From contig JAFXYZ010000017.1 of NCBI GenBank assembly GCA_017541465.1, positions 1 through 64,000 of the forward strand: a stretch of 64,000 nucleotides of DNA, given 5' to 3'. Under the pieces are notes generated by a model that made no database searches, was not told the origin of the DNA, and saw only the letters and a program-made list of their open reading frames with translations. Source of the DNA: a bacterium. GTDB lineage: Bacteria; Cyanobacteriota; Vampirovibrionia; Gastranaerophilales; Gastranaerophilaceae. Shown one piece after another: positions 43,441 through 64,000 of the stretch (position 1 is the first letter of the stretch; each line of letters begins with the position of its first letter). The translations under genes and the position numbers were made by a program.

Positions 43441-43505
43441 AAGAAGCTGGAGAGGGGAAGAATACCCCTCCTCCTCTTCAAAAAAAAATGAAAGGACAAA
43501 ACACA

Positions 43506-44963: not shown

Positions 44964-44975
44964 AATTTCAAATTA

Positions 44976-45046: not shown

Positions 45047-45050
45047 AAAC

Positions 45051-45122
45051 GGCTCTATAGCTCAAAGGCAGAGCAACTCCCTCATAAGGAGTGGGTTCTT
45101 GGTTCGAATCCAAGTGGAGCCA
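45051..45122 (+). tRNA. tRNA-Met (anticodon CAT), elongator or Ile2 type
   Basis: Acceptor GGCTCTA/TGGAGCC, anticodon stem ACTCC/GGAGT with loop CTCATAA, T arm CTTGG/CCAAG. The paired 1-72 position excludes an initiator tRNA. CAU could also be lysidine-modified Ile2; sequence alone does not decide. Four bases separate it from the tRNA-Gln. Confidence 0.88.
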
Positions 45123-45125
45123 CAT

Positions 45126-45198
45126 GGCTCTGTAGCTCAGGCGGTAGAGCGCGGCCCTGAAAAGGCCGGCGTCACTTGTTCAAATCAAGTCGGAGCTA
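45126..45198 (+). tRNA. tRNA-Phe (anticodon GAA)
   Basis: Acceptor GGCTCTG/CGGAGCT (1-72 is a G-U wobble, unusual), anticodon stem CGGCC/GGCCG with loop CTGAAAA, T arm ACTTG/CAAGT with loop TTCAAAT. Discriminator A, no encoded CCA. The weak first pair may suit end trimming or repair. Confidence 0.85.
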
Positions 45199-45207
45199 AA
45201 TTTATAT

Positions 45208-45282
45208 GGTGCCTGTAGTTTAACGGTAAAACCCTCGTCTGTGGAACGGGCGATGAGGGTTCGACTCCCTCCGGGCACACCA
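45208..45282 (+). tRNA. tRNA-His (anticodon GTG) with A73
   Basis: Acceptor GTGCCTG/CGGGCAC, D arm GTTT/AAAC, anticodon stem CTCGT/ACGGG with loop CTGTGGA, T arm GAGGG/CCCTC. The base before G1 is G (a possible encoded G-1), but the discriminator is A instead of the usual bacterial C73, so G-1 would not be paired. ACCA at the end may be an encoded CCA. Relevant to the Thg1-like gene nearby. Confidence 0.88.
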
Positions 45283-45305
45283 TATTTTCTGATAAAGGAA
45301 AAAAT

Positions 45306-45306
45306 A
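45306..45306 (+). other. start point of the rtcB coding unit directly after the tRNA cluster
   Basis: Only 23 bases lie between the tRNA-His CCA and the rtcB ATG, with AAAGGAAAAA as ribosome site and no separate promoter visible. The rtcB message must therefore be released by processing of the tRNA cluster. Confidence 0.5.
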
Positions 45307-46529
45307 TGAAAGAAATCATCGGACAATTTAACAGCGCAAAGGTTTTCATCGATTCGGCAGATGAAAAATCACTTAACCAGATTCAGGAGCTTTGCAACCA
45401 GGAATTTATCAAAGGAAGCAGAATTCGTATCATGCCTGATGTTCACGCAGGGGCAGGATGCACAATAGGAACAACAATGACTATAGTTGATAAGGTTGTT
45501 CCGAACCTTGTTGGTGTTGATATCGGGTGCGGTATGGAAACAATTTTGCTTGAAGAAAAGACTATTGATTTTGAAAAATTTGACAGGTTTATTTATGACA
45601 ATATTCCTTCAGGCATGGAGGTCAGAACAACTCCCCACAAATATGCAGATGAAACCGAAATCAGTGAATTAAAATGCTTCCGAATGATTAAACAACACAG
45701 GGCAATTCACAGTATCGGCACACTCGGGGGCGGTAATCATTTTATTGAAATAGATAAAGATGAGGAGGGTAATTTATATCTCGTTATCCACTCGGGAAGC
45801 AGATATTTGGGAAAAGAAACTGCAGAATACTATCAGGAGGAAGCCTATAATCAATTAAACAACTGTTCAAGAAAAATGATTGATGAATTAATCGCCCAAT
45901 TAAAAGCGCAGGGGAAAAGAACTGAAATTCCTTCAAGAGTTGAGGAATTAAAAAAACAGATAATAACCGATATTCCAAAATCTCTCGCCTATGCAAGCGG
46001 ATATTTGTTTGATGATTATATCCACGATATGAAAATTGTGCAAAAATATGCCGTTTTAAACAGAAAAGCCATGGCGGAGGAAATAATTAAAGGGTTGAAT
46101 TTGACCGTCAGAGAAGAGTTTACGACTATCCACAATTACATAGATACCGAATCGATGATTTTAAGAAAAGGGGCGGTATCGGCGAAAAAAGGTGAAAAAC
46201 TTTTAATACCGATTAATATGAGGGATGGAAGTTTAATCTGCACGGGAAAAGGAAACGAGGACTGGAACTGCTCGGCTCCCCACGGCGCAGGAAGATTATT
46301 CAGCAGAACTCAGGCAAAGAAAAATTTTACCGTTGAAGAGTTTAAAAAATCAATGGCTGGAATTTTTACCACCTCCCTGAACGAAGAAACTTTAGACGAA
46401 TGTCCTATGGCATACAAAACAATGGACGATATTGTAAACAACATCTCTCCGACCGCCGAAATAACAAAAATCATAAAGCCCGTTTATAACTTCAAAGCAA
46501 GTGAAACTTTTTTGGGGTTCAGAAAATGA
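45306..46529 (+). CDS. rtcB: RNA-splicing ligase RtcB
   Basis: 407 residues. Family blocks are clear: MPDVHAGAGCTIGTTMTI, GVDIGCGMET (metal-binding Cys), LGGGNHFIEI, HSGSRYLG, and H326 in CSAPHGAGRLFSR, the guanylated histidine. RtcB joins 2',3'-cyclic phosphate or 3'-phosphate RNA ends to 5'-OH ends, repairing tRNAs cut by anticodon nucleases. This is a short-type RtcB compared with the ~480-residue archaeal enzyme. It follows four tRNA genes and overlaps the next small gene by 4 bases. Confidence 0.95.
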   Translation: MKEIIGQFNSAKVFIDSADEKSLNQIQELCNQEFIKGSRIRIMPDVHAGAGCTIGTTMTIVDKVVPNLVGVDIGCGMETILLEEKTIDFEKFDRFIYDNIPSGMEVRTTPHKYADETEISELKCFRMIKQHRAIHSIGTLGGGNHFIEIDKDEEGNLYLVIHSGSRYLGKETAEYYQEEAYNQLNNCSRKMIDELIAQLKAQGKRTEIPSRVEELKKQIITDIPKSLAYASGYLFDDYIHDMKIVQKYAVLNRKAMAEEIIKGLNLTVREEFTTIHNYIDTESMILRKGAVSAKKGEKLLIPINMRDGSLICTGKGNEDWNCSAPHGAGRLFSRTQAKKNFTVEEFKKSMAGIFTTSLNEETLDECPMAYKTMDDIVNNISPTAEITKIIKPVYNFKASETFLGFRK

Positions 46530-46756
46530 AAGTCGGGTTTAAATGGAAATCGATAGAAGGGCTCTCAAGAGGAAAACTGTTTAAAATAACGGAAATTACT
46601 TCTGAGAAGGTTTTCTATAAATCGGAAGAAACAGGAAAAATTTACTGCGCCGACAGAAAATTCTTTGAAAAATATATTGAAAGAGTAAACAAATTCTGGT
46701 CAGAAAAAAATAAAACGTACAAAAATAAAAAAGAAAAACTGAAAAATGAAAGATAA
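46526..46756 (+). CDS. small basic protein of the RNA-repair operon
   Basis: 76 residues, Lys-rich, with a C-terminal stretch of alternating Lys/Asn/Glu (KNKTYKNKKEKLKNER). The beta-rich N-terminal half (GFKWKSIEGLSRGKLFKITEI) may be a small barrel. It is coupled to rtcB (4-base overlap) and to the nucleotidyltransferase gene (11-base overlap). No known family recognised. The charge fits RNA binding. Confidence 0.65.
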   Translation: MKVGFKWKSIEGLSRGKLFKITEITSEKVFYKSEETGKIYCADRKFFEKYIERVNKFWSEKNKTYKNKKEKLKNER

Positions 46757-47525
46757 AATAAAAACTTTACTTCAGCAAACGGAAAAAGATAACGGTATAA
46801 AAATTCTTTTTGCGATAGAAAACGGAAGCCGTTCCTGGGGAATGGCAAGCAAAGACAGTGATTTTGATGTTCGTTTTGTGTTCTTCCGCGAAATAAAATA
46901 CTATCTTTCCCTGAGCAAAAAAGAAGAAGTTTTAAATTCCTCTTTCGATAAAAACCTCAACCCCTGCCCTGTTCAGGGGGCTTTGGTTGATATATGCGGT
47001 TTTGATATTTTTAAATATTTAAAGTTACTGTTATCTTCAAACCCGACTACTATCGAATGGCTCAACTCCCCGATTGTCTATTATGGGGATAATAACCTTT
47101 CGCTAAGAGGATATATGAAGGAAAATTTTAATCAGGAAAGGTTATTCAGGCACTATTTTTCTTTGTTTAAAAACAACTACAGAGAATTTATCCAGCTCGG
47201 AAAAGCAATAACCTATAAAAAATATCTCTACTCTATGAGAGGGCTTTTAAATGCAAAATATGTTTATGAGTTTAACAAAATTCCTCCGCTTGATTTAAGA
47301 CAAACCGTTGAAGAAGTCAAAAACCTTATTCCGAAAAAAGTTTATGAAAAAATTGAAGAGGTTATAAAAATAAAATCTCTCGGGCTTGAAAGAGATACTA
47401 TTTTGAGAATAGAAGAATTTGACGAATTTTTTAACTCGGAACTTCAAAAAGAATATCAAAACTTCAACCCTAAAAAACCTGATGTAAAAGTGTTAAATGA
47501 GTTTTTGGAAAAGATTTTTATATAA
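46746..47525 (+). CDS. RlaP-type DNA polymerase beta-fold nucleotidyltransferase
   Basis: 259 residues. The nucleotidyltransferase motif is ENGSRSWGMASKDSDFDVRFVF, with the Gly-Ser and the Asp-x-Asp metal site. The later WLNSPIVYYGD and the helical C-terminal part match the family called RlaP, which is associated with RtcB-type RNA repair and is thought to add nucleotides to RNA ends. It closes the plus arm and overlaps the convergent glycosylase gene by 8 bases. Confidence 0.87.
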   Translation: MKDKIKTLLQQTEKDNGIKILFAIENGSRSWGMASKDSDFDVRFVFFREIKYYLSLSKKEEVLNSSFDKNLNPCPVQGALVDICGFDIFKYLKLLLSSNPTTIEWLNSPIVYYGDNNLSLRGYMKENFNQERLFRHYFSLFKNNYREFIQLGKAITYKKYLYSMRGLLNAKYVYEFNKIPPLDLRQTVEEVKNLIPKKVYEKIEEVIKIKSLGLERDTILRIEEFDEFFNSELQKEYQNFNPKKPDVKVLNEFLEKIFI

Positions 47526-48073: not shown

Positions 48074-50725
48074 ATGAAGAGAAAAAATGTTTTTATATAT
48101 TTACTGTCATTTTTTCTGCCGATATTTGTCTTATTGGCTGTTATGTTTCTGCTGAAAATTTTTCCGTTCGGAAACGGCTCTTTTCTCTACTGGGACGGCG
48201 AAATTCAGTATGTTAATTTCTACACCTACCTAAAAACCGTTTTTACCTCAAACAGTAATTTATTCTACAGTGTCTCTAATCTCGGCGGAAATAATATGTT
48301 TGATTTTGCAGCATATTATAATTTCTTCAGTCCGTTTAACCTTATCTTTCTTCTCTTCCCCGCCGATTACACGAATATCGCCCTTGAAATTTTGATGCTG
48401 ATAAAACTCGGGCTTTGCGGAGTTACGTTTGCTTATTTTATAAACAAAGAATTTTCGCCGGGGTATTATTCCGCCTTTTTCGGGCTCTCTTATGCACTTT
48501 CCATGCACTCTCTGATTACCACCATGAGTAATTTTATCCTTATGGATGGAATAATTCTTCTTCCTCTTGTGGCTGCGGGTGTTTCAAAAATAATAAAAGA
48601 AAAAAAATGGGCGCTCTTTGTTTTTGCGCTCTTCTTTTCTCTTCTGACAAATGCCTATATGGGCTATGTTGCAATAGTCTTTTCGGCACTCTTCCTGATA
48701 TATAAAATCATTTTAACAAACGAAAAAACAAAACAGGATATTCTGAAATGGCTCAGAATTTATTGTTTGGGAACAATAATCTCTATAGGTTTAAATGCCT
48801 GGCTTTTAATACCGGTAAGATTTGCCCTCGACAGCGGGAAATATCATTATTTTGACATCTTAGACAGGTTATTTTTAATTAAATGCAACCCGCTTGAGGT
48901 TATCTCAAAACTGTTTTCCTACAACCTTGATGCGGAATTTTGGGCAGAAAAATGCCCTTACATTTTCTGCGGAATATTAATCGTTGTTCTCTTTATTATG
49001 TACTTCCTGAACAGTCATTTCAGCAAAAAAGAACGACTTGTTGACGGACTGATGGCACTGTTTTTATTCTTATCCTTCCACATTAACTGTTTGTTTGTCA
49101 TCTGGTCGATGGGGGTTGAAAACCCTAACGGCACGATGTTCCGCTTTGGTTATGTCTTTATCTTTTTCATGATTTATCTTGCGAAAAAAGCCACCATGCC
49201 CGTTGACAAAATCAATATAAAAACCTGGCGGAGTATATTAATCATTTTCGGGATAACCGCACTTGCCATATATACAAACCATTTTGAGACAATAAAATAC
49301 AAAATGTTCTTACTCGATATTCTCTTTTGCATCTTCTTAATTGCCTCAATACAGTTAATGAGAAAATATAAAAATAAAATTCTCACATTATCTCTTATCT
49401 CGGTTATTGCGATAATTCATGTTATTAATATAGGATACAACACCTATTTTGTATTTTCTTCCCAAAGATGTTTTTGTTTATCAAATGACATTCATTATTT
49501 TTCAACCTTCAGACAGACAATGGCTCAGGTTCTCAAAAAAATATATGACTCAGATGATGATTACTACAGAATTGCCTCTCAGGAAACCTACATTAGAGAA
49601 GACGGTCACAAAATCTATAACAACAGCTCATTTCTGAACAATTATGATTCTATGGCTGGGTATTCCAGTTTTGGCACTGTTCCGACCAGAAGATTTTATT
49701 ATAATATCGGTGTTCCTGTTTTTATGCACAACATGCTTATAACCTATCACGATTTTATTGAAGTCTTCCCTGTTTCCTTTCTCGGGGTTAAATATATAAT
49801 AACAAGAAACCCCTTTATTCATGAGCCTTATGAAAAAACAGACGCAGTAGATGATAATTTGTTTATCTATAAAAACCATGCGGCTTTTCCGTTTGCCTTC
49901 CTGATAAATAATTCCGATGACATAAAAGGTGAAGCGCTTTATGAAAAAAGCCCCTTTATCCCCGATTTTCAGAATAATATAGCAAAACTCCTCTCGGGCA
50001 ACGATTTCGGAAATATTTACACCTACAAACAACTTCCTCTGTTTGAAGATGCGCTTCAGCCCTCAAAAAGAACAACCATTAATAATGAAGAGCATATCTT
50101 TTTTAATGAAACCGCAAAAACAGATTACAATTACTATCTGACTATCAACTCTGAAGATTATAACAGTTATGAATATCTTTTAAACATCATCGTTACAGCC
50201 CCTTATTTTTCCTATATGCACATTATTGATGAGCTTAATTATAATTCTTTGTTTCTCGGAAATGAAATTAAAGACAGGACCGTCAAACTCGACATATCTT
50301 TAAATCCGTACTGTTTTAAAGAAGAGGGAAATATAAACGGTTTATCTCATCTGACCTTATTATTTGTTGAAGAAAATACGGATATTTTAAAAAAATATTC
50401 TGATTTAATTAATACCCAAAAATGCAACATGAAAAAAATAACAAGCTCACACTATAAAGGAAGTTTTAAAGCAGAAGGGGATAATAAACTTCTGTTCATC
50501 TCTATTCCCTATGATTTAGGGTGGAATATTAAGATAAACGGCAAAAAAGTTACGCCGATAAAGGTCTTCAATTCAATGATGGCTATTCCCGTTTCCGAAG
50601 GAGAGAGCGAAATTGATATGAACTATATTCCAAAAGGCTTATTGTTGGGAATAATTATTTCACTCTTCAGCCTGCTTCTTTTATGTGCGCTCGTATTTCT
50701 TAACCGCAAAGAGGAATTATCTTAA
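48074..50725 (+). CDS. YfhO-family membrane protein, copy 1
   Basis: 883 residues. About a dozen membrane segments occupy the first ~450, and a large outer domain of ~400 residues is followed by a final membrane helix. The N-terminal block FPFGNGSFLYWDGEIQYVNF carries acidic residues equivalent to the catalytic loop of GT-C glycosyltransferases, and TSSHYKGSFKAEGDNKLLF is shared with all the paralogues downstream. B. subtilis YfhO adds GlcNAc to lipoteichoic acid; the polymer here is unknown. It opens the glycan block and is convergent with the next gene. Confidence 0.85.
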   Translation: MKRKNVFIYLLSFFLPIFVLLAVMFLLKIFPFGNGSFLYWDGEIQYVNFYTYLKTVFTSNSNLFYSVSNLGGNNMFDFAAYYNFFSPFNLIFLLFPADYTNIALEILMLIKLGLCGVTFAYFINKEFSPGYYSAFFGLSYALSMHSLITTMSNFILMDGIILLPLVAAGVSKIIKEKKWALFVFALFFSLLTNAYMGYVAIVFSALFLIYKIILTNEKTKQDILKWLRIYCLGTIISIGLNAWLLIPVRFALDSGKYHYFDILDRLFLIKCNPLEVISKLFSYNLDAEFWAEKCPYIFCGILIVVLFIMYFLNSHFSKKERLVDGLMALFLFLSFHINCLFVIWSMGVENPNGTMFRFGYVFIFFMIYLAKKATMPVDKINIKTWRSILIIFGITALAIYTNHFETIKYKMFLLDILFCIFLIASIQLMRKYKNKILTLSLISVIAIIHVINIGYNTYFVFSSQRCFCLSNDIHYFSTFRQTMAQVLKKIYDSDDDYYRIASQETYIREDGHKIYNNSSFLNNYDSMAGYSSFGTVPTRRFYYNIGVPVFMHNMLITYHDFIEVFPVSFLGVKYIITRNPFIHEPYEKTDAVDDNLFIYKNHAAFPFAFLINNSDDIKGEALYEKSPFIPDFQNNIAKLLSGNDFGNIYTYKQLPLFEDALQPSKRTTINNEEHIFFNETAKTDYNYYLTINSEDYNSYEYLLNIIVTAPYFSYMHIIDELNYNSLFLGNEIKDRTVKLDISLNPYCFKEEGNINGLSHLTLLFVEENTDILKKYSDLINTQKCNMKKITSSHYKGSFKAEGDNKLLFISIPYDLGWNIKINGKKVTPIKVFNSMMAIPVSEGESEIDMNYIPKGLLLGIIISLFSLLLLCALVFLNRKEELS

Positions 50726-52756
50726 TCTTGCCGTATCATACCAGTTATAAGGGTTTGTATTCGGGTACATTGTTCTGAATTTTTCAAACCCTATCCATAA
50801 ATTAAATCCGTTTTTCTCTTTAACCTCAACAAAATCAACCCTTGCGGTTATATCAGAAAAATCATTGTTTACATACAAACAAAAATCAACGTCATTATCA
50901 TTTATTTTAACGGTAAATTTTGCTTCATTTTTAATTATGGTTTTATCATAGATTTTGATTTTTTTATCGTTTACAAGCGCAAGAAATTCAAGTTTATCAA
51001 GGTTTTCACCTTTGACTGTTATTTCATATTCATCAGCCGAGGAAATTTCCCGTTCAAAAATTTTCTCATTATAGGAAAAATGAGGAATAACCTTTTCGGG
51101 TATAGCCTCAAAAATATCGGGAGTTCTTTCCACCCAAATATTTTCGGGTTTGATTTTTTTATTCTCGGGTATTGAAGGGAAAAACCACAGAGCATCCGTT
51201 TGTTGGGTAAAATCAAACTGATAAGAGAGTTCTTTATCGTTAAAAACCTCTTCCCTGTAATTTTCGATAATATCGTGGTCTGCCATAAGAGGGAATTTCC
51301 CCGTCAAAAAGTTATCCCCTTCAATTTTTACCCTGTAATGACCTTTCGGATAAACAATATAAGGAAGGCAATAAAATGCCTCCTGAAGAAGGTATTTTTT
51401 ATTATTAAATTCCCCGACTCTCGCAAAATACTTGCCGTTTATGAGTTTAAAGGAAAACAGGTCTTTATAGGTATTCAGCCCCGATTCCTCGGGAAGTGCT
51501 TTTGTCAGGTACATAAAATACATACAATTAGTGAAAAAGAAACAAAGAATACAAAAAGCAACAAATATTTTTGAATATAATTTATTTTGCAGAATATAAT
51601 AGAGAGCACAGGCAAAAAAGAGCATTAACAGAGGATAGTAGTCAACGAACATTCTTGAGCCGAAGCTGTCCGCCTGAAACCAGCCTGTCCACCATATCGA
51701 AACCATATAAAATACAACAAGAAGAAACCCTAAACTTCCCCAAAAGATTTCTCTGAAGTGCCTTTTATAAAACCACAGACCTATCAGGCACACCAGCAAA
51801 ACAGGAAGATAGAAAAAGAGCCCTTTGGTTGGACCAAACAATACCAAAAGAAACTTCGGGTTTAGCCAGTAAAAGGTTTCATTATAGTAAGTATTCAGAT
51901 AAAATTTTCCGCAAACCTTATACCAGTAAGCTATCTGAAGAGAAAGAGGCAACAATAAACCCAGAAAATTAAAGGGAAGGCGGGATAAAGAAAATATTTC
52001 CTTCATTCTTTGTATGAAAGTCTCTTTATCCACCGCTTTATACAAAATATAGATAAGCAAAACTGAAATATTTATTGATTTTACAAGAAACAATATCCCT
52101 GAAATTATCCCCAGAAAAAGAGAATAGAGAGGTTTATTTTTAAAATTATCCTCCTTTAAAACAAGATATATAAAAAGAGAAATTAAGAAAAAGGAATAGG
52201 TATGCCCCATTGAAGCATAAAGAGTTAAATAATTAATGAAATTAGTGCAAAGCGCAAAAATTATGCAGGTTATTAACCCGATTTTTTTACTGAATTTCTC
52301 TTCAATTATTCTGTAGAGCAAGAACGTCCCCAAAGCCCAGTAAACAAAACAGCCGACCGCAACCGAAATCTGGTAGGGAAGAGAATAACCGTCAGCAGGG
52401 AAAGAGCGGAGGAGGGAAACAAAAAAATGTGTGGTTATAAAGAAGGGAAACTGCAAAATCGCAATTCCGACAGGGTATTTATTAAACAGTCTGCCATCGG
52501 GAAGGATATTAAAATCTATCGCATCAGAGTGGCACCCCGGGATTTTATCGGCAAAATTCATAAAAATATCGTGGTGGATAAAAACCGCAGGAAGATAAGA
52601 ATAATAGCCTTCTCCATCCGAATAAACAAAACCTCTGAAGCTCCCTATCATAGAATGAAAAAAGAACAGGTCAAAAACAACAAGAAGTATTGCCATTATT
52701 CCCAAAAATATAAAAAACAGTTTATGTTCGCCCAAAAAAGAAGTTATTTTATTCAT
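50717..52756 (-). CDS. GT-C-like polytopic membrane glycosyltransferase
   Basis: About 679 residues. Residues 1-430 are ~11 membrane helices, with an acidic N-terminal loop GFVYSDGEGYYSYLP as in GT-C (GT39/83-like) enzymes. The C-terminal ~230 residues form an outer beta-rich domain whose HYRVKIEGDNF segment resembles the repeats of the 965-residue protein at 60701. The frame begins TTG at 52768, but the ATG at 52756 follows a GGCGGA site. It is the only minus-strand gene of the block. Confidence 0.78.
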   Translation of the reverse strand: MNKITSFLGEHKLFFIFLGIMAILLVVFDLFFFHSMIGSFRGFVYSDGEGYYSYLPAVFIHHDIFMNFADKIPGCHSDAIDFNILPDGRLFNKYPVGIAILQFPFFITTHFFVSLLRSFPADGYSLPYQISVAVGCFVYWALGTFLLYRIIEEKFSKKIGLITCIIFALCTNFINYLTLYASMGHTYSFFLISLFIYLVLKEDNFKNKPLYSLFLGIISGILFLVKSINISVLLIYILYKAVDKETFIQRMKEIFSLSRLPFNFLGLLLPLSLQIAYWYKVCGKFYLNTYYNETFYWLNPKFLLVLFGPTKGLFFYLPVLLVCLIGLWFYKRHFREIFWGSLGFLLVVFYMVSIWWTGWFQADSFGSRMFVDYYPLLMLFFACALYYILQNKLYSKIFVAFCILCFFFTNCMYFMYLTKALPEESGLNTYKDLFSFKLINGKYFARVGEFNNKKYLLQEAFYCLPYIVYPKGHYRVKIEGDNFLTGKFPLMADHDIIENYREEVFNDKELSYQFDFTQQTDALWFFPSIPENKKIKPENIWVERTPDIFEAIPEKVIPHFSYNEKIFEREISSADEYEITVKGENLDKLEFLALVNDKKIKIYDKTIIKNEAKFTVKINDNDVDFCLYVNNDFSDITARVDFVEVKEKNGFNLWIGFEKFRTMYPNTNPYNWYDTARLR

Positions 52757-52881
52757 ATTTTCCGCCAAAACTTTATTCTCTTTTCTATTCTACCAGCAAA
52801 AAATCAACGGGACAAAACAATTAAATATATTAAGAACAGTCATAAATTTGCTTTTAGCCGAATTTAAACTATAATTTTTAT

Positions 52882-55491
52882 ATGAAGAAAAATGTAATCA
52901 TCTGTTGTTTATCATTTTTTATTCCGATTATACTCTTACTTTTGGGGACAGTATCATCACACATATTTCCGTTCGGAACACAGTCTTTTATCGAATGGGA
53001 CTCCGAACTTGAATTTGTCGAAGCACTGGGATATTTTAAATCACTGTTTACTTCTGATAATGATATTTTTTATTCCTTTTCAAAGATTGGAGGTAATTGG
53101 GTTTTAGATTATCTGTCGTTTTACTGCGCCAGTCCTCTTAATTTTATTTCCTTATTTTTCCCCGAAAAATACCTGCATCTTGCACTCTATTTAATAACCA
53201 TTCTCAAAATCGGGCTTTGCGGATTAACCTTTTCATACCTTGTAAATAAGGTCTTTAATTTATCCTATAAATCTATCTTTTTTGCAGTTACCTATGCTCT
53301 TTGCGGATATAATCTCATCTACATCCCAAATATAATCTTCTATGACGGAATTTATCTCCTTCCCCTCATTGCTCTCGGAATAATTTCACTCGTTAAGCAA
53401 AACAGGTATTTTCTCTATATCTTCGCTCTCGCTCTTTCAATTATATCAAACTCCTTCACGGGCTATATCGTAATCGTCTTTGGGTTTTTCTTATTTATAT
53501 ATGAGCTGCTTCAAAACAAATTTGAAACATCAAAAGAACTTGCAGGAAGGATAAAGACATACTGTTTTTCAACTCTCACTTCGCTTCTCTTAACTGCCTG
53601 GCTGTTAATACCCATTAAATATTCCCTTTCCGTCAATGCAAAATATGAATTTTTCGATATTTTTAACCGTTTATTTTTCTTCAGAACGGATATTATCCCT
53701 GTTTTATCAAAATTCTATACGGGAAGTGTTCTTGAAAACCAGTTTTGGCTTGAACAGATACCTTTTGTCTTTATAGGTATTTTGTGTCTTTTGTTTTTTA
53801 TCCTCTACTTCTTCAACAAAACTTTTTCGGTTAAGGAGAGAATTATTACTTTTTGCTTTTTTATCTTTTTGTTTTTGAGCTTCTCTCTAAACTGCCTGTT
53901 TGTTTTATGGAATATGGGTGTTGAAGAGCCTAACGGAACGATTTTTCGTTTCGGGTTTATCTTTCCCTTCTTCACAATTTTTATTGCGGCAAAATCTTTT
54001 AAAGAGCTTGATAAACTTACTCTGCCAAACATACTTTTAACAGGCTTTATTTTTATCTTGATGTCGGTTATAGTTTATCTTCAGCACTACAGCTACACCG
54101 ATTATTTCCTCTTTTCAATAGACGTGCTTTCCGTCTTTGTATTTTTATCGCTTTTATATCTTGCAATAAAAAAACCGAAGCTGACGGCTCTTTTCCTCAG
54201 TGTTGCGGCTCTTATTCATTTTTATAATTTATATGTAAATACGGAAAGGGTTATTGCATCTCAAAGAGGTTGCTGTTATTCAAAAGAAATAAGTTATTTT
54301 AAAGATTATTCCGAAAGTATGCAGGAGGTTCTCTCATACATAAAAGCAAAAGACAAAAGTTTTTACAGGCTTGATACCTACACAAGTTTTGTTCCCTCTA
54401 TGTACGATCGAATTTATAACAATATGTCGATGTTATTCGGCTATAATTCCATTTCAAACTATTCTTCCCTCGGAAACCTTGAAACAAAAGATTTTCTGAC
54501 ACAAATCGGCTATCCCTCGTTTTTCCAGAAAAATAATCTTCAGATAACCTATCTTGATTCTCTTCAGATTTTCCCGACAATGCTGATGGGGGTAAAATAT
54601 CTTATATCAACCGAACCTTCTTTAGGAAGAGGTTTTGAGAAAATCTACACTTCTCAAAATACAACCTTTGACACCCCTTTAAACCTTTTCAAAAACCCTT
54701 ATGCTCTGCCTGTCGGGATAATTATTGACAATACGGATAAATTAAAAACAATAAAAGAAAAAGAGGTTATGCCTGATTTTCAGAATAATCTTATTAAAAT
54801 AATCTCAAATAAAGATTTCGGAAATATATATTCTTATACCCTCTTCCCTTCGGTTTCAAAAGAAATAGAAACAAAAGACAGAACATTAATTCCCCTGTCT
54901 TATAAAGCCACTTCAAACGAAAATCTATATCTTGTTTTTCAGAAAAATCAGGAAATATATTATCCTGTTTTGGATATTATCAAAAATAACGAGCTTTTTG
55001 GTTTTTATTCTAATCTTCTGAATTTTAATATCTACTATCTCGGAAATAACCAAAATAACAGGCAATTTGATTTTTATCTTTTATCAACTCTCGATGATTC
55101 AAATTTTGATTATAATAAATTCAAAATCTATTTTATGTATGAAAATACCGATATTTTAAAAAAATATTATGACGAGCTGACAAAAAACACCTGTAATCTC
55201 AGCCAGCTTACAAGCTCTCATCTCAAAGGTCATTTTGAAATCAGAGAAGATAACAAATTATTACTCTTAACAATACCTTATGATAAAAACTGGGTAATCA
55301 AAATTGACGGGGAAGTACAAAAACAAATTAAAGTTCTGAATATGCTGACAGGAATAAAGGTTGAAAAGGGCAGTCACACTATTGAAATGAGATACAGACA
55401 AAAGGGCTTTTTAACGGGAAGCATTATTTCAGGCCTGACCTTAATTATACTTACAGGTATACTTATCAGAAGAAGGAAGAAAAATGACTAG
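52882..55491 (+). CDS. YfhO-family membrane protein, copy 2
   Basis: 869 residues of the same build as copy 1: FPFGTQSFIEWDSELEFVEAL at the N-terminus, about 12 membrane helices, an outer domain with TSSHLKGHFEIREDNKLLLL, and a last helix followed by a basic RRRKKND tail. The start block has Trp-Asp-Ser where copies 1 and 3 have Trp-Asp-Gly or Trp-Asp-Val, so the acceptors may differ. It overlaps the next copy by 8 bases. Confidence 0.85.
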   Translation: MKKNVIICCLSFFIPIILLLLGTVSSHIFPFGTQSFIEWDSELEFVEALGYFKSLFTSDNDIFYSFSKIGGNWVLDYLSFYCASPLNFISLFFPEKYLHLALYLITILKIGLCGLTFSYLVNKVFNLSYKSIFFAVTYALCGYNLIYIPNIIFYDGIYLLPLIALGIISLVKQNRYFLYIFALALSIISNSFTGYIVIVFGFFLFIYELLQNKFETSKELAGRIKTYCFSTLTSLLLTAWLLIPIKYSLSVNAKYEFFDIFNRLFFFRTDIIPVLSKFYTGSVLENQFWLEQIPFVFIGILCLLFFILYFFNKTFSVKERIITFCFFIFLFLSFSLNCLFVLWNMGVEEPNGTIFRFGFIFPFFTIFIAAKSFKELDKLTLPNILLTGFIFILMSVIVYLQHYSYTDYFLFSIDVLSVFVFLSLLYLAIKKPKLTALFLSVAALIHFYNLYVNTERVIASQRGCCYSKEISYFKDYSESMQEVLSYIKAKDKSFYRLDTYTSFVPSMYDRIYNNMSMLFGYNSISNYSSLGNLETKDFLTQIGYPSFFQKNNLQITYLDSLQIFPTMLMGVKYLISTEPSLGRGFEKIYTSQNTTFDTPLNLFKNPYALPVGIIIDNTDKLKTIKEKEVMPDFQNNLIKIISNKDFGNIYSYTLFPSVSKEIETKDRTLIPLSYKATSNENLYLVFQKNQEIYYPVLDIIKNNELFGFYSNLLNFNIYYLGNNQNNRQFDFYLLSTLDDSNFDYNKFKIYFMYENTDILKKYYDELTKNTCNLSQLTSSHLKGHFEIREDNKLLLLTIPYDKNWVIKIDGEVQKQIKVLNMLTGIKVEKGSHTIEMRYRQKGFLTGSIISGLTLIILTGILIRRRKKND

Positions 55492-58111
55492 AAAAAAAAT
55501 TACGATATATTGTTTATCCTTCTTCCTTCCCATAATCTTTGCCCTTCTGGCATGCTTTATTGCGGGAATTTTTCCCTTCTCCCATAAGTCTTTTTTATAC
55601 TGGGATGTAGAGTTTCAGTATCTCAGCTACCTCGGGTATTTTAAATCTTTGTTTACGACAAACAACGATATTTTCTATACCTTTGCCCGCTACGGCGGGG
55701 AAAATATGCTCGATTTTACCGCCTATTATCTTTTGAGCCCGACTAATTTACTGTTGTTTTTCTTTCCCGAAAAATATCTGAACATAGGGGTTGAGTTCCT
55801 GATGATTTTAAGACTGGGGCTTCTCGGGTTAACCTTCTCTTATTTTCTCAACAAAGAATTTCCTCTCAGCTATAAATCAATTATATTCGCTCTCACCTAC
55901 GCGCTTTGCGGATATAATCTAATGAACATTTCCAATATAATCTATTTTGATTCGATAATCCTTCTTCCGTTTGTTTTAATCGGAATAAACAAAATTGTTA
56001 AAAACAATAACCCTCTTTTCTATCTTATCTCAATATTTGCGGTTATTTTATCTCATGCCTTTATCGGATATATGTTTATTATCTTTGCAGGGTTGTTTTT
56101 AATTTATAAACTTTTGCTGAAGGAAGATGAAAAACTAAAAACGGCTTTCAAAAAAATCACCTCTTTTGTTATCTCTTCCGTGCTTGCCGCAGGGTTAAAT
56201 GCCTGGCTTTTAATACCCGTAAAAGCTGCTTTTTCCGATGGAAAATATACCTACTTTGATATTCTGGACAGATTATTTTTGATAAGAATTAATATTATCG
56301 ATATTTTTTCAAAATTCTATACGGGAACAATTCTTGAAAATGAGTTTTGGGCAGAAACTGCGCCTTATATTTTTATTGGTATTTTATCCCTTCTTCTTAT
56401 GATTTTATTCTTCTTTAACAAAAACTTTTCAAAACGGGAAAAGCTGGTTTCCTTCGGCTTTCTTCTCGTTCTCTTTTTGAGTTTTACCGTTAATTTTCTG
56501 TTTGTTATGTGGAATATGGGGGTTGAAAACCCAAACGGAACTATCTACCGTTTCAGCTTCCTGTTTGATTTTTTCGCTCTTATCCTCGGGTATAAAGCTC
56601 TTCAGAATACGGAATTTATTAAACCCTCTTCTTTAATTTATACCGCTTTGATTTTTCTTGTAATAAGCGCTTTGGTATTCTCTCAACACTACAGTTATAT
56701 AAATATCTATTGGTTTTCTCTGGATATTATTCTCGGGCTTGTTTTTCTTTGGCTTTTTTATTATATGGTTCAAAAAAGTCCAAAATACGCATTTAGTGCC
56801 CTCTGCGCCATATTTCTTCTTCACGGGTTAAACCTTTTGATGAATACGGAATATTCCTTTTCCTCTCAGGATTACTGCCACCTGTCAAAAGATGTCAGAA
56901 CTTTTACTCAGACAACAAGCGGGATTAGAGAGAGTTTAAATTACATCAAAGAGCACGACAAGGGTTTATATAAAATCGAAACCCAGGAATATTTTATAGA
57001 TGAAATCCATGAAGAACACCTTTATTATAACACTTCTCTTTTAATGAACTTTGACTCTGTTTCCCAGTACAGCTCGTTTGGAAAACTTTCCTATAAAGAT
57101 TTTCTGAGTCGCCTCGGCTATTATACTCTATTTAATAACTTTGGCATTCAGTATGTCGATTCCATGCAAACACTTCCTCTGAGTTTGTTGAATGTAAAAT
57201 ATATTCTTTCTGCGAACCCTCAGCTCCATAAACCCTATATAAAAATCTTTGAAACAAACAACTATAAACCATACAGAACACTCTATACCTATGAAAACCC
57301 CTATGCGCTTCCTCTTTGCTTTTTGGTCGGCGATAAGAGAATAAAAGATGAAAATTTATCGTTTGAAAAATTCCCCGATTTTCAGAATTATCTTTTAAAA
57401 GTCTTATCGGGAAAAGATTTTGGGGATATTTACAATTACAAATTACTCTCAGAAATAACGGATAATTTTGAGAGCGAAAATGCGGAAAAAAGAGAAACAA
57501 GATTTGATTATACTGCGGAAAAAGACGGAAACCACTATCTTTTAATTCAAAATAATCAAAATATGTATATTCCTTTTATGATGAGCGTTTCAGATAAATT
57601 AATAAAGGACGAATATTCGGGACTTTCAAGATTTAATTCTCTCTATCTCGGGAATTTTAAAAAGGGCGAAAAGTTATCCTTTGATATTTTTGAAGATATT
57701 TTTGATGTCGGAATAATTGATTATCTTGAAAATAAAGAGCTCTATATCTATCTTGCCTCTGAAAATCTTGATGCTTTAAAGAATTATTATGATGAAATCT
57801 CTCATAATGCCTGCGATATTAAAAAAATCACAAGCTCTCACCTTAAAGGAAATTGTGAAGTTAACGAGGACAACAGGTATGTATTTATTTCCCTTCCTTA
57901 TGATAAAGGGTGGAGAATAAAAATTGACGGAAAAGAAACAAAAACCTTCCCTGTCTTTGACCATTTGACGGGCTTTTCCATCCCAAAAGGTGCAAAAGAA
58001 ATTGATATGCGCTTCAGGCCTTCAGGATTTAATTCAGGCTTAACCGTTTCCGCTTTTTCTTTCTTTTTGGTTATAATATTCTTATTCATAAGGAGAAGAA
58101 ACGATGGATAA
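55484..58111 (+). CDS. YfhO-family membrane protein, copy 3
   Basis: 875 residues. It has the block FPFSHKSFLYWDVEFQYLSYL, the loops MGVENPNGTIYRFSFLF and DFQNYLLKVLSGKDFGDIYNY, and the ending TSSHLKGNCEVNEDNRYVF before a final helix and RRRNDG. It is most similar to copies 1 and 2 by these blocks, so recent tandem duplication is likely. It overlaps copy 4 by 8 bases. Confidence 0.85.
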   Translation: MTRKKITIYCLSFFLPIIFALLACFIAGIFPFSHKSFLYWDVEFQYLSYLGYFKSLFTTNNDIFYTFARYGGENMLDFTAYYLLSPTNLLLFFFPEKYLNIGVEFLMILRLGLLGLTFSYFLNKEFPLSYKSIIFALTYALCGYNLMNISNIIYFDSIILLPFVLIGINKIVKNNNPLFYLISIFAVILSHAFIGYMFIIFAGLFLIYKLLLKEDEKLKTAFKKITSFVISSVLAAGLNAWLLIPVKAAFSDGKYTYFDILDRLFLIRINIIDIFSKFYTGTILENEFWAETAPYIFIGILSLLLMILFFFNKNFSKREKLVSFGFLLVLFLSFTVNFLFVMWNMGVENPNGTIYRFSFLFDFFALILGYKALQNTEFIKPSSLIYTALIFLVISALVFSQHYSYINIYWFSLDIILGLVFLWLFYYMVQKSPKYAFSALCAIFLLHGLNLLMNTEYSFSSQDYCHLSKDVRTFTQTTSGIRESLNYIKEHDKGLYKIETQEYFIDEIHEEHLYYNTSLLMNFDSVSQYSSFGKLSYKDFLSRLGYYTLFNNFGIQYVDSMQTLPLSLLNVKYILSANPQLHKPYIKIFETNNYKPYRTLYTYENPYALPLCFLVGDKRIKDENLSFEKFPDFQNYLLKVLSGKDFGDIYNYKLLSEITDNFESENAEKRETRFDYTAEKDGNHYLLIQNNQNMYIPFMMSVSDKLIKDEYSGLSRFNSLYLGNFKKGEKLSFDIFEDIFDVGIIDYLENKELYIYLASENLDALKNYYDEISHNACDIKKITSSHLKGNCEVNEDNRYVFISLPYDKGWRIKIDGKETKTFPVFDHLTGFSIPKGAKEIDMRFRPSGFNSGLTVSAFSFFLVIIFLFIRRRNDG

Positions 58112-60704
58112 AAAAAGGGTTATAATATACAGTTTATCTTTTCTTCTTCCTCTGTTTGCCCTCCTGTTAATTTGTTGTTTTCAGGGAATATATCCGTTTG
58201 GAAATGCTTTATTCCTTCATTTTGACAATGAATTTGAAACTCTAAACTATCTTGCTTTTTTTAAATCGCTTTACTCGGAGCACCATAATTTCTTTTATTC
58301 TCTCTCAAAATCAGGGGGCAGCGGGCTTTTGGATTTCAACCTGTTTTATGGTATGTATAACCCGATTAATTTTTTCCTGTTTTTGTTTCCTAACGATAAA
58401 CTCGATATAGGACTTCAATGGTTAACCCTCATCAAAATGTCGCTTGCGGGTTTTACTTTTAACTATTTTATAAACAGAATTTATCCTCTGAGCAAAAAAT
58501 CTCTGATAGTTTCAAGCTCTTATGCCCTCAGCGGATATCTGCTCGGACATATAACAAACATCATCTTTTTTGACGGTTATATTCTTCTTCCCTTAATGAT
58601 TTTAGGGATAATTAAAATAATTAAAGAAAAAAAGGCAGGGTTGTTTTTGGGAATAAGTCTTGCTTCTATGGTTTGTAATGCCTTTACCTGCTATATTTCC
58701 CTTCTTTTCTCGTTTATGTTTTTCTTTTATTATTTGCTCTCACAATATAATTTAAAAGAACAAAAAGCGGAAATAATAAGTGCAATAAAGAAATATTTCA
58801 CCTCGCTCGGTATTTTTCTTCTATTGACGGCGGTTTTATATATCCCCGTTATTTACACTTTATTTGAAAGCAAATTTGCAATTTCCCTGAAGCCCGTTGA
58901 TAACTTCTATATTAACCCGCTTTTACTGCTTTCAAGATTTTTTACTGGCTGTGTTGAATATAATTACAGTGATTATAACGTTCCTTATGTTTTTTGCGGA
59001 ATATTTATTTTCTTTATGGTTATTTTATATTTTTATAACCAAAACATTTCACTTAAAAAACGGCTCTGTTCTCTTGTTTTTCTGACCTTTATTTTTTCCT
59101 GCTTTTTCCTTCAGCCCCTTCATAATATGTGGAATTTATTTGTTTCTATGCCCTATGGCTTTATTTACAGATACGGGTTTATTTTTACCTTTTTGTTTTT
59201 ATATATTTCTTATGAAGAAATCATTAATTTTAAATATTCCGATAAAACAAAAATTATAATTCCCATGGTTTTTATTGCTTCGGGGGCATACCTTCTTATC
59301 GTTCAGAATGAATTATATAAAATAAATTCGTTTCTTGTTTTGGATATTATTCTCTCTCTTCTGTTCGGAGCTCTTTTATTCGGAGTATTGAAATACCCCA
59401 AATATACAAAACCTTTATTTATAACAATAATTATCCTGCATATTTTTAATTTAACCTTAAATACTTATCACTTTATAAGTGTGGGAAAATATAATTCCCA
59501 GATTAGAGCAGATTCCTTTTACAGATATTATAAAACCTATAAAACAGCCTTTGATTACATAAAAAATAATGATACTTCTTTATACAGAATAAATTCAAAC
59601 GATACTTATCTGGCTCTGTCAAAATCATGGGCGGCAAAACATAACAATATGCCTATGCTCTTTAACTACAGTGGATTTGAACATTACGGAAGTTTAGGAA
59701 AAATTTTTTACAAAAACTTTCTTATGAACCTCGGACTTGAAACAAATGTCCATAACCAGTATGTGACTTACTATGATGACAATATGCCGATGTTTTCGGA
59801 TATGTTTTTCGGGATAAAATATTTTGTTACCTCCGATAAAAACTTTATAAAACCTTATGAGGTTTATAAAACTTTTGAAAATACCTATAATCAAAAGATA
59901 ACCGTTTATAAAAATCCTTATGCTCTTCCTTTTGCGTTTCCCGTAAACGGAAGTATTTCCGAAATTAAAGAGCTCAAAGATTTAACTTTAGGTGAAGTAT
60001 ATAATAAACTGGCACAAAGTATTCTTCCTCAAAATACGATTTATTTCAGCGAAGAAAAAATTAATCCCCGTTTATCAAAAGAAACCTTCTTTTATGTTAT
60101 GCCGTATTCTTCTTTAATCACAACACTTCTGCAAATAAAAAAAGGTGGTAATTACTGTATTTCCCTGTCAGAAACAGATAAACCTCTTTTGGTTTCAAGA
60201 CTGGTTTTCGATGAAAAGAAAACTCTGTGGGAGCAGGAATCAAATGAAAATCTTTTTAATGTCGTTTGCCAAAAGGGTGAAAAACAAGATAGTGAACACA
60301 TCGTTTCACTGCTATTAAACGAAGAATTACCAAATACTTTAGAATTTTCCGTTTTGTATGAAAATGAAGAAGGAATAAAAAAATTATATGAACATATTAC
60401 AAAATCAAAATCTGACTGGAAACAAATCAGCCCGTCTTCGTTTGAAGGAACTGTAGAGACAGAGGAAGATAATCAGATTTTATTGTTTACTCTTCCTTAT
60501 GAAGAGGACTGGAAAATAAAAATCAACGGAGAAAAAGCAGAAAAAACAAAAGTTTTAAATGCTCTTTTGGGTGTTCCTCTTTCAAAACAGGGAACTTATA
60601 AAATTCAGATTTACTACTGTCCGAGAGGGCTAAATCTTGGTATTTTGGTATCTCTTATCGGGTTAATTATTCTTATGGTACTGATTAGAAAGAAAGAGTT
60701 ATGA
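58104..60704 (+). CDS. YfhO-family membrane protein, copy 4
   Basis: 866 residues. The start block is diverged (YPFGNALFLHFDNEFETLNYL, with Asp-Asn-Glu), and the outer domain carries fewer of the shared motifs, but SSFEGTVETEEDNQILLFTLPYEEDWKIKING still matches. It is the most distant copy in this set. It overlaps the repeat-protein gene by 4 bases, indicating translational coupling. Confidence 0.83.
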   Translation: MDKKRVIIYSLSFLLPLFALLLICCFQGIYPFGNALFLHFDNEFETLNYLAFFKSLYSEHHNFFYSLSKSGGSGLLDFNLFYGMYNPINFFLFLFPNDKLDIGLQWLTLIKMSLAGFTFNYFINRIYPLSKKSLIVSSSYALSGYLLGHITNIIFFDGYILLPLMILGIIKIIKEKKAGLFLGISLASMVCNAFTCYISLLFSFMFFFYYLLSQYNLKEQKAEIISAIKKYFTSLGIFLLLTAVLYIPVIYTLFESKFAISLKPVDNFYINPLLLLSRFFTGCVEYNYSDYNVPYVFCGIFIFFMVILYFYNQNISLKKRLCSLVFLTFIFSCFFLQPLHNMWNLFVSMPYGFIYRYGFIFTFLFLYISYEEIINFKYSDKTKIIIPMVFIASGAYLLIVQNELYKINSFLVLDIILSLLFGALLFGVLKYPKYTKPLFITIIILHIFNLTLNTYHFISVGKYNSQIRADSFYRYYKTYKTAFDYIKNNDTSLYRINSNDTYLALSKSWAAKHNNMPMLFNYSGFEHYGSLGKIFYKNFLMNLGLETNVHNQYVTYYDDNMPMFSDMFFGIKYFVTSDKNFIKPYEVYKTFENTYNQKITVYKNPYALPFAFPVNGSISEIKELKDLTLGEVYNKLAQSILPQNTIYFSEEKINPRLSKETFFYVMPYSSLITTLLQIKKGGNYCISLSETDKPLLVSRLVFDEKKTLWEQESNENLFNVVCQKGEKQDSEHIVSLLLNEELPNTLEFSVLYENEEGIKKLYEHITKSKSDWKQISPSSFEGTVETEEDNQILLFTLPYEEDWKIKINGEKAEKTKVLNALLGVPLSKQGTYKIQIYYCPRGLNLGILVSLIGLIILMVLIRKKEL

Positions 60705-63598
60705 TAAAAAAATATATTTCCGAAATAATATTTATTATCTTTATTCTTTTTTGCTCGGTTTTATTCACAAAAAACTATCAGGCAATAACGGAAAATCTTT
60801 CATATTATAATTCAGACCAAAAACCTTTTATTTCGACCGCAGAAAAAGATTTTAAGGCATACAGAAAAAATAATAATTATTTTTTAAACCCGGAAGGGTA
60901 TATCTCTGGTCCTTTTATTCCGCTCAAAAGAGGTTATTATTTTATAAAAATTACGGGTGAAAATTTAAATGATTCAAGTATTTCTCTTTTTGCAAGAAAT
61001 GAAAGTCTGTCTATTCCTTTGCTTGCACAGAAAAAAGAAGATAATGAAATAAAAATAATAACAAAAACAACCTCTCTTATTAATGATTTTGAAATTAAAA
61101 TTATAAATCAGGGTACAAAAATCTCTCAGATTAAAAATATTGTGATTTATCCTGTTTCGGAAAAAATAATCACAAGTTCTTTTTCTCTTCCAAAAGAGGT
61201 AAACGTCCTTTTTTCAATAAAAGATTTTGACGAACCTTATAGCCCGGAAATCATTAAATACCTGATAAAAAATCACAGAACCATTAAAAATATCGACTAT
61301 TATCCAAGCTATATTATTTCAAAAAAAATAAAACAAAAAAACAGTATTTCTTTTATTTCAAAAAATGATGCCGTTAATCATCTGAAAAATTTTGATTATT
61401 ATTATGAAACCCCAAATGAAATAATCGGATCTTTTGTTCCCTTAAAAGAAACCTCCGAATTAAAATTAAAAAGAAAAAATATTATAGATGACCAAAAGCC
61501 CTATTCTATTGATTTTAAAAACAGTATAGACTGTGAACGTTGTTATTATGATTCGGGTACAAGATTTATTCTTCAGAACGGTCGCTCCTTCGGTCCTCAT
61601 ATTACCTTAAATAAAGGTCCTTACCTTATCGACATTAAAGGAAAAAACCTCAAAGATGCCGAATTTACTCTTTTAGAAGATTACGGAAGAAAAATGATTC
61701 CGTTTGTTGTTATCGATATTAATTCTGATGAACACAAACAACTTCTTTTTAATACCGAAAACTTAATTGATGATTTTGAAATTCAAATTATTAATCAGAG
61801 TAACCATATTATCTCTTTTAATAATATTTCTGTCAGACAAATATCTCCCAAAGAGGTTTCAATAAAAGAAAATCTTCCTTCTCAAATTAACAGGGTTTTT
61901 GTTTATAACGGAACAATAAATCTTGATTTACTTATGATGTCTGTAAAAAATCATTTTTCCGTTGTTGATATATCAACCCTCCCGGATTTCGTCAAAAAGC
62001 TGTTTCTTTATATTCCAAACTCTGTTTCTTATGTTTCCAATAGTTCTGTTATCGGAAAAAACCTGTTTTTATATAATATAAACAATAATTTCTTTATTTC
62101 AAAAAGAAAAATTAACGGGTTAAAAGAAGTTCTTTTTATATATAATGTTGATTTTAAAAATAATACTTTCCTGGAAAACGGATATGACAAGAATAATGAA
62201 AGGTTTATTAACCCTCAAGGGCGCTCGTTTGGTCCTGACATTACCCTGGATAACGGCGGATACTTTATTGAAATAAAGGGTGAAAATCTCAATAGTGCAA
62301 ACTTCACTTTGTATTCTAACTATGGCAAAAAAGAGATTAAATATACTTTCTCTAAAGATTCTGATTCCGGTAAGGTTTTAAATTTCATCTCAGATAAAAA
62401 AATCAATAACTTTGAAATTGAAGTTAAAAATGACAGTAATAATCAAATTAAAATCTCTCAGATTTCTGTTCACAAAACTAACTATAAATCACCTTCTTTG
62501 ATTGCAAAAATTAAAAAGTTCTCTCTCAAAACAGTTTCAAAGATTAAAAGATTTCTTAATAAACCTTTTAATTATTCCTTCGTATTTAAAAATAACTACT
62601 GGATTGAAAACGGATTTGATAAGAATAATGAAAGGTTTATTAACCCTCAAGGACGCTCGTTTGGGCCTGACATTACCCTTAAAAAAGGTTTTTATAGGGT
62701 TGATATTAAAGGTGAAAATCTTAACAGTGCAAATTATACTCTTTATAGAAATTTTGGTAAAAAAGAAATTTTGTATGCTCTGTCTGACACAAACTTTGAT
62801 GACCATAAAATTCTATATTTTGTCACGGATAAAAAAATCAATAACTTTGAAATTGAAGTTAAAAATGACAGTTCAAAAGTTGTGAATATTTCTTCTTTGA
62901 GTTTTTCAAAAATAAAAAATCAGGATATTGAAGCCCTTCAGCTCCTTCCAAAATCCGTAAAAAGAATTTTTATTATGGAAGAAGAAGTTTTAGACAATGA
63001 TATTATAAAAACAGCATTCAAAAATAATATAAAAATTTATAATATATCTCAAATGCCTGATTTTTATAAACATTTATGCACTTTTATTCCAAAATCCATA
63101 TATCAGATTTCAAAAGAAAGTATTGATGAATACCTCAAAAAAGGTGTTTATTTATACAAAATAAAAAATAATTTATTCTTCTCCGATAAAAAAATCGAAG
63201 GGTTAAAACCCGATAATAAAAATATAAAACAATTATTCTTCAATTACATTTATGACTTTAAAGAAAATCCTTATATTGAAAAAGGTAAAGACAAAAATAA
63301 TATAAGATTTCTTGAAAAAGGCGGTCGTTCGTTTGGTCCTTATATCGAATTAGAAAAAGGTAAATATAGAATTGAAACGGAAGGTTCAAACCTCGACAAG
63401 GGTAATTTTGTTCTTTATACGGAAATAGGTAAAAATGAAATTTCTTATACAAAAGATAAAAATAATACCTCTAAAAAAACTGTTTTATATTTTGAAACGG
63501 ATAAACCCCTGAAACAGTTTGAAGTTTCAGTTACAAACGAAGGAAAAAATGTTCTTTCAATAAATAAAATAGAAATAAAATCAAACTCTGATAATTAA
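60701..63598 (+). CDS. large membrane-anchored protein with alternating beta-domain repeats
   Basis: 965 residues. One N-terminal membrane helix (about 7-22) is followed by five copies of a ~95-residue unit with GRSFGPDITL, a KGENLNSANFTLY segment and NNFEIEVKND (around residues 45, 285, 505, 640, 865). A second unit type (LPKSVKRIFIMEEE ... ISQMPDFYKHL) is interspersed three times. Copies 3 and 4 are nearly identical in DNA over about 60 bases (offset 432). There are almost no cysteines. It probably sits outside the membrane and binds or displays glycan, judged only from its YfhO neighbours. I know no family for it. Confidence 0.78.
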   Translation: MIKKYISEIIFIIFILFCSVLFTKNYQAITENLSYYNSDQKPFISTAEKDFKAYRKNNNYFLNPEGYISGPFIPLKRGYYFIKITGENLNDSSISLFARNESLSIPLLAQKKEDNEIKIITKTTSLINDFEIKIINQGTKISQIKNIVIYPVSEKIITSSFSLPKEVNVLFSIKDFDEPYSPEIIKYLIKNHRTIKNIDYYPSYIISKKIKQKNSISFISKNDAVNHLKNFDYYYETPNEIIGSFVPLKETSELKLKRKNIIDDQKPYSIDFKNSIDCERCYYDSGTRFILQNGRSFGPHITLNKGPYLIDIKGKNLKDAEFTLLEDYGRKMIPFVVIDINSDEHKQLLFNTENLIDDFEIQIINQSNHIISFNNISVRQISPKEVSIKENLPSQINRVFVYNGTINLDLLMMSVKNHFSVVDISTLPDFVKKLFLYIPNSVSYVSNSSVIGKNLFLYNINNNFFISKRKINGLKEVLFIYNVDFKNNTFLENGYDKNNERFINPQGRSFGPDITLDNGGYFIEIKGENLNSANFTLYSNYGKKEIKYTFSKDSDSGKVLNFISDKKINNFEIEVKNDSNNQIKISQISVHKTNYKSPSLIAKIKKFSLKTVSKIKRFLNKPFNYSFVFKNNYWIENGFDKNNERFINPQGRSFGPDITLKKGFYRVDIKGENLNSANYTLYRNFGKKEILYALSDTNFDDHKILYFVTDKKINNFEIEVKNDSSKVVNISSLSFSKIKNQDIEALQLLPKSVKRIFIMEEEVLDNDIIKTAFKNNIKIYNISQMPDFYKHLCTFIPKSIYQISKESIDEYLKKGVYLYKIKNNLFFSDKKIEGLKPDNKNIKQLFFNYIYDFKENPYIEKGKDKNNIRFLEKGGRSFGPYIELEKGKYRIETEGSNLDKGNFVLYTEIGKNEISYTKDKNNTSKKTVLYFETDKPLKQFEVSVTNEGKNVLSINKIEIKSNSDN

Positions 63599-63613
63599 AA
63601 CAAAAGGATAAAG

Positions 63614-64000
63614 ATGAAAAAATCAATTATTATTAATATAACTTCTTTTCTGATACCAATATTTATAATCCTGACTGCCTGCGCTTTTAACGGGGTTTTT
63701 CCATTTGGGCAACATACTTTTCTCTATCTTGATTCTGACACCCAGTATCTTAATTATCTGAACTATGGAAAAACTATCTTTTCTGGGGAAAATAATCTTT
63801 TCTATTCTTTTGCAAAAAACGGAGGAAGCGGAATTGTTGATTTTGCATCTTATTATCTCTTTAGTCCTTTGAACCTTGTTTTTCTTTTCTTCCATGATAA
63901 ATACAGTGATATTGCTTATCAGATAATTCATATTTTAAATTCGGCTCTTGCAGGTTTAACGTTTTGCTATATGCTATCAAAACTATATAAAGAAAGGTTT
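63614..64000 (+). CDS. YfhO-family membrane protein, copy 5, cut by window end
   Basis: 129 codons without a stop to the window edge, start ATG after AAAGGA. It contains FPFGQHTFLYLDSDTQYLNYL, the N-terminal block of the YfhO paralogues, and two to three membrane segments. The array therefore continues beyond the window. Confidence 0.85.
   Translation, partial: MKKSIIINITSFLIPIFIILTACAFNGVFPFGQHTFLYLDSDTQYLNYLNYGKTIFSGENNLFYSFAKNGGSGIVDFASYYLFSPLNLVFLFFHDKYSDIAYQIIHILNSALAGLTFCYMLSKLYKERF

Follow-up and report, generated by a model that had tools for sequence, protein, structure and literature searches.

Gene content of the YfhO array

The analysed stretch of DNA (hereafter the window) covers the opening 64 kb of a contig of 77.6 kb from a Candidatus Gastranaerophilales MAG, a gut bacterium related to cyanobacteria, whose 2.12 Mb genome in 74 contigs is estimated to be 99.7% complete with 1.4% contamination. 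Near the 3′ end of the window lies an array of YfhO (PF09586) genes. YfhO copy 1 (48074–50725, forward strand, 883 aa) matches the whole profile with 426 bits and carries the motif WDGEIQ in its first loop. It converges on the only reverse gene of the array (50717–52768), and their 3′ ends overlap by 9 bases. This gene, which the first-pass annotation had already listed as a GT-C, encodes a 683-aa GT-C protein of the PMT_2 type (PF13231, 32.9 bits with a cut-off of 26.1); its start is listed as TTG, and an ATG four codons further is equally likely.

By coordinates and sequence, a divergent intergenic region of 113 bases (52769–52881) separates the opposed GT-C gene from a forward run of YfhO copies 2 to 5. 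The run opens with copy 2 (52882–55491, 869 aa, 426 bits, WDSELE), followed by copy 3 (55484–58111, 875 aa, 453 bits, WDVEFQ), which was chosen for modelling, and by the most divergent one, copy 4 (58104–60704, 866 aa, 365 bits, FDNEFE). The next forward gene (60701–63598) is not a YfhO; it encodes a 965-aa protein, here called REP, with one N-terminal TM, five modules A and three modules B. Copy 5 (878 aa, 399 bits, LDSDTQ) starts on the same strand at 63614, extends beyond the end of the window at 64000 and ends at position 66250 of the contig (L009:3615-6251).

The first-pass annotation had described five YfhO copies lying nearly head to tail, with overlaps of 4–8 bases, in an array continuing past the window. 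There are indeed four complete genes and a fifth that starts at 63614, but they follow one another in this way only if REP is skipped. The overlaps of copies 2/3 and 3/4 are of 8 bases each, while the 4-base overlap joins copy 4 to REP, which has no Pfam match, and a 15-base gap separates REP from copy 5. Extension of the locus confirmed that the array continues, by one gene only. The spacing of copies 2–5 and REP suggests that they form one transcript; promoter-like sites in 52769–52881 were no more frequent than expected by chance, so the predicted operon rests on gene spacing.

Downstream of 66250 we found a 210-aa ORF without assignment, then pgk, thrB and dnaN. The adjoining thrB showed a best identity of 66%, and its homologues in the named collection belong to Candidatus Gastranaerophilales (Melainabacteria) or to gut MAGs with no finer name. 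Further along, downstream of glnA, glycosyltransferases and a polytopic flippase-like protein (L009:12444-17336) form another surface-polysaccharide region before the contig ends. Directly upstream of the array, 43428–47525 holds an RNA-repair-like cluster with RtcB, RlaP and four tRNA genes (Gln, Met, Phe, His), as well as a vWA-like DUF2828/DUF7788 protein that resembles the Ro60 type by eye. Elsewhere in the window, 8611–16168 is a glycan gene cluster with closely spaced genes for a DegT aminotransferase, a GT8 and three GT2 glycosyltransferases; 36737–39205, at the end of a low-GC stretch (32–38 kb, 27–30%), encodes an 822-aa protein joining sigma-70 region 4, RQC and PIF1-like helicase domains.

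The whole genome has 8 YfhO copies at three loci, 5 of them in the array. The remaining 3 are on two other contigs, two at the start of contig C25 (C25a and C25b) and one on C48, where it adjoins a gene named by eye as obgE. All eight scored 364–453 bits as full-length matches, with a gathering cut-off of 28.5, and one is shortened only by the contig start. As C25 starts inside a YfhO gene, further copies may be missing from the assembly.

Conserved and variable parts of the YfhO copies

According to hydropathy and the model, each YfhO has many TMs, then an outer domain of roughly 390 residues before the last TM. The divergence of the copies had been placed mostly in an acidic N-terminal loop and in the outer domain. 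The first half of this claim was contradicted, as conservation is highest in residues 1–120 (pairwise identity 0.45–0.48 on average). In the first outer loop, with its Asp-containing, DXD-like motif, D41 is present in 8/8 own copies and D/E at position 43 in 7/8. The second half held: residues 641–760, in the outer domain, are the most variable (0.17–0.25), with 9–31% identity between array copies.

The AF2 model of copy 3 (pLDDT 74, pTM 0.76) was of moderate confidence overall, falling to low in the first loop and in some stretches of the variable domain. Its best structural matches are GT-C proteins, led by the oligosaccharyltransferase OST STT3 (Z 18.9 over 424 residues) and followed by AftD (Z 17.6), PglB (Z 15.0), AftA (Z 14.6) and ArnT (Z 13.2), with PMT also among them; Foldseek gave AftD as best match (E 2.9e-6). 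A search of solved structures by sequence returned only a chance match. By the modelled fold and the first-loop motif, the YfhO copies are assigned to the GT-C superfamily. Residues 625–761 of copy 3 form a beta-sandwich in the model and align weakly with GH2 sandwich domains (Z about 6).

Since the catalytic side is kept and the outer beta-sandwich has diverged, the copies most likely differ in their acceptor or attachment site, and the diverged outer part is probably acceptor-binding. The conserved catalytic-side loop, the variable sandwich and the supported GT-C fold make the earlier suggestion of a family diversified for specificity plausible; as a caveat on this reading, divergence of the outer domain is also expected from relaxed selection.

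REP and its modules

No Pfam family matched REP above cut-off, and no match was found in NCBIfam or PADLOC. Its five modules A, beta-sandwiches of roughly 100 aa, alternate with the three modules B, of ~100 aa. Module A was modelled with good confidence as a CBM-like jelly-roll beta-sandwich (pLDDT 89.7, pTM 0.82) and aligned structurally, at low sequence identity, with carbohydrate-binding-like domains (Z 8 to 10.7; no Foldseek E < 0.001), namely Vip3 C-terminal domains, a porphyran-binding CBM, CBM4, CBM16, CBM35 and the N-terminal domain of GlfT2.

Two diverged copies of module A also lie in the outer C-terminal part of the opposed GT-C (HMM E 1.6e-7). None of the family libraries searched contains this link between GT-C outer domains and a carbohydrate-binding-like repeat protein that stands alone. 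Going by the models, REP is probably a membrane-anchored string of carbohydrate-binding-like modules that holds or presents a polymer, and probably acts as an acceptor-binding helper. Another Gastranaerophilales genome (G518; L131:1537-3342) encodes a polytopic membrane protein with no Pfam match and with module A at its C-terminus, which supports a place for module A as an outer domain of such enzymes.

Age and relationships of the copies

The array copies are about 28–43% identical to each other and 28–35% identical to the other three own copies, while C25a and C25b share 57%. The phylogeny called for by the first-pass annotation rejected a clade made up of the five window copies (p-AU 0.004). 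One clade was formed by C25a, C25b and C48 (100/100), and a single clade of all eight own copies, with a support of 56/61, was neither shown nor rejected. Against the plasmid-borne outgroups, a thin sample of three sequences only, the eleven Gastranaerophilales copies clustered together with support of 98/99 with all three outgroups and 100/100 with two. The low identities and the trees indicate that the copies are old and did not arise through recent duplication. Their GC3 (0.25–0.41) overlaps that of housekeeping genes and was therefore no basis for judging a recent acquisition.

The same comparisons bear on antigenic variety, which had also been proposed; in the sense considered here, the copies would recombine or be switched on and off, thus varying the surface. 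We regard such a cassette as highly improbable. Several related genes do stand in tandem, and copy 4 is placed differently in the trees of the membrane half and the outer half, as a mosaic origin of this copy would predict, but this conflict has weak support and is confined to long branches. Besides the 28–43% identity among array copies, the longest exact DNA word common to two of them is only 23 bases; the array holds no simple repeat longer than A8, the inverted repeats found in it are short or imperfect, and neither gene conversion nor a phase-variable tract was found among its copies.

Distribution among relatives

Full-length YfhO was detected in 2 of 97 genomes of the family and 2 of 286 of the order, the same two in both cases, the host and G017; among 386 genomes drawn from the phylum, no further one had a full-length match. 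Other matches in the phylum covered mostly the last 60–130 profile positions, in the C-terminal domain, and belong to other GT-C-like proteins. Three candidate genomes (G086, G105 and G118) had matches that were short or below cut-off and were excluded from the count. In all, 29 relatives have pgk beside thrB, mostly as dnaN-thrB-pgk, and no YfhO-like sequence was present in the flanks examined, up to 10 kb. Scanning genome contigs with a three-copy alignment found no YfhO relatives, and a donor of the YfhO set was not found.

Relatives thus vary in the number and order of their YfhO copies, and the host differs sharply from them in both, so the outcome named by the first-pass annotation as refuting its reading, a fixed number and order in distant relatives, was not observed. 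This sporadic presence suggests either horizontal gain with local expansion or many losses.

G017 has a second Gastranaerophilales GT-C array (L021:6624-19243), in which three YfhO genes are interleaved with genes for three tandem DUF6311 membrane proteins that share a conserved C-terminal tail. One of its YfhO genes is broken across two frames, a second is missing the middle TMs, and in a third the first-loop Asp has been lost. Decay thus occurs in the family, and the host copies could likewise be redundant or decaying duplicates that do the same job, their divergence reflecting age and relaxed selection. We consider this quite unlikely for the host, as all eight of its copies are uninterrupted and have kept the first-loop Asp and the GT-C core despite identities of only 28–57%.

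Partner genes and envelope

In known three-component systems with YfhO, a GT2 and a GtrA protein work with this enzyme (PMC5836110, PMC8035078), and both partner families are encoded in the host. GtrB/CsbB-like GT2s with two C-terminal TMs are found on contigs C43 and C71; the one on C43 shares 35% identity with a GT2 from a Priestia plasmid, on which the genes for GT2, GtrA and YfhO stand in a row. There are two GtrA genes, on C3 and C43. No GT2 or GtrA gene was detected among the genes flanking the array, in contrast to the csbB-yfhO and GT2-GtrA-YfhO arrangements, and the genes on C3, C43 and C71 all lie away from it, so the assignment to a three-component pathway depends on genes in trans.

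The GtrA gene on C3 (L024, 306–4974, within C3:1-6000 of the host genome) lies beside genes that, named by eye, encode a short-chain dehydrogenase, a polytopic membrane protein and a UbiA-type prenyltransferase. This cluster resembles the three-component pathway for polyprenyl-phosphate pentofuranose (PMC11127046), and its GtrA probably works in a pathway other than that of the array.

According to a published inference, Melainabacteria have LPS and an envelope of the Gram-negative type (PMC3787301). The host genome encodes LpxC, which points to an outer membrane, and a Wzy_C-type ligase or polymerase. No match to the sulfatase family PF00884 was found in the genome, while a control search found it in B. 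subtilis and L. lactis. LtaS is a member of this family; with no such protein there would be no LtaS, and judged by gene content classical LTA is an unlikely acceptor. This absence rules out the known polyglycerol-phosphate LTA route, but no other.

Proposed function

We think it probable, with a fair measure of doubt, that the copies are lineage-specific paralogous periplasmic GT-C enzymes of a three-component pathway, with diverged acceptor recognition, that act on LPS, capsular polysaccharide or protein; donor sugar and acceptor are what we infer. GtrB/CsbB-like GT2s encoded elsewhere in the genome would load single sugars onto polyprenyl phosphate, and a GtrA-type flippase would turn the loaded lipids over. 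Each YfhO would then take the sugar on the periplasmic side by means of its conserved first-loop Asp and hand it to an acceptor gripped by its own outer beta domain. Most likely, the copies would not all place the same sugar at the same position; they would diverge in the acceptor served or in the site of attachment. The acceptor would most likely be LPS/O-antigen or a capsule-type polysaccharide, less likely a surface protein, and not LTA. We infer the division of labour among the copies, the role of REP and the operon.

Protein O-glycosylation deserves separate consideration, as the sole NCBIfam matches of a window YfhO were PgfM1 (249 bits) and PgfM2 (247 bits). In Streptococcus mutans, pgfM1 and pgfM2 are needed for the modification of the adhesin Cnm (PMC5856776). 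Perhaps the copies likewise add successive sugars to surface proteins, such as the repeat-rich REP, a surface-type repeat protein encoded within the gene run of the array. This is unlikely in our judgement. The scores are far from the equivalog cut-offs (249 of 1400 and 247 of 1500 bits), the array has neither an epimerase nor a PgfS-like GT2, and REP looks like a binder that shares the module of the opposed GT-C, unlike a Ser/Thr-rich acceptor.

Returning to diverged acceptor recognition, a more specific version is possible, though doubtful, in which up to eight YfhO copies with diverged acceptor domains, the opposed GT-C and REP as common acceptor scaffold, the last two sharing one domain family, would be one periplasmic decorating assembly of an LTA-less diderm, adding different sugars, or sugars at different positions, to one surface polymer. 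A helper role for REP in acceptor binding is favoured because a GT-C with a substrate-binding CBM is known to add side sugars in a three-component O-antigen side-chain system (PMC11127046), and because a review of three-component systems raises the possibility of acceptor-binding proteins separate from the transferases (PMC8035078).

YfhO has been studied as a Gram-positive teichoic-acid enzyme, and a large set of copies in an LtaS-less host with an outer membrane suggests other acceptors for the family. Paralogues whose catalytic part is constant while the outer part varies also offer a natural series in which to look for the region of a GT-C enzyme that reads the acceptor.

Comparison with known systems

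GlcNAc is added to LTA in B. subtilis and S. aureus, and to WTA in Listeria, by a GT2-GtrA-YfhO system with YfhO as its GT-C (PMC5836110, PMC8035078). The host proteins belong to the same full-length Pfam family as the YfhO of the B. subtilis and S. aureus YfhO-CsbB-GtcA systems and share its topology, with a large outer domain preceding the last TM (B. subtilis topology: PMC5836110), and the GT2 and GtrA partner families are likewise present in the host genome. However, the host has eight copies rather than one, is a diderm with LpxC and no LtaS-type sulfatase, and keeps its partner genes outside the gene run, inside which an extra carbohydrate-binding-like protein is encoded.

PgfM1 and PgfM2 of S. 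mutans are the closest named curated models, and there too two related membrane proteins are encoded in one operon; the host, in contrast, reaches a sixth of the equivalog cut-off, has no PgfS or PgfE nearby and has more copies. The arabinosyltransferases AftD and Emb of mycobacteria also combine a GT-C core with carbohydrate-binding outer domains, but identity is about 8% and hosts and sugars differ. With the O-antigen side-chain systems (GtrA/GtrB/Gtr, and the Citrobacter youngae ribofuranose system with a GT-C plus CBM) the host shares a predicted Gram-negative envelope, a putative periplasmic GT-C and CBM-like modules that may bind the substrate, whereas its GT-Cs are YfhO-family proteins with many paralogues, and its CBM-like modules are also carried by a separate membrane-anchored protein.
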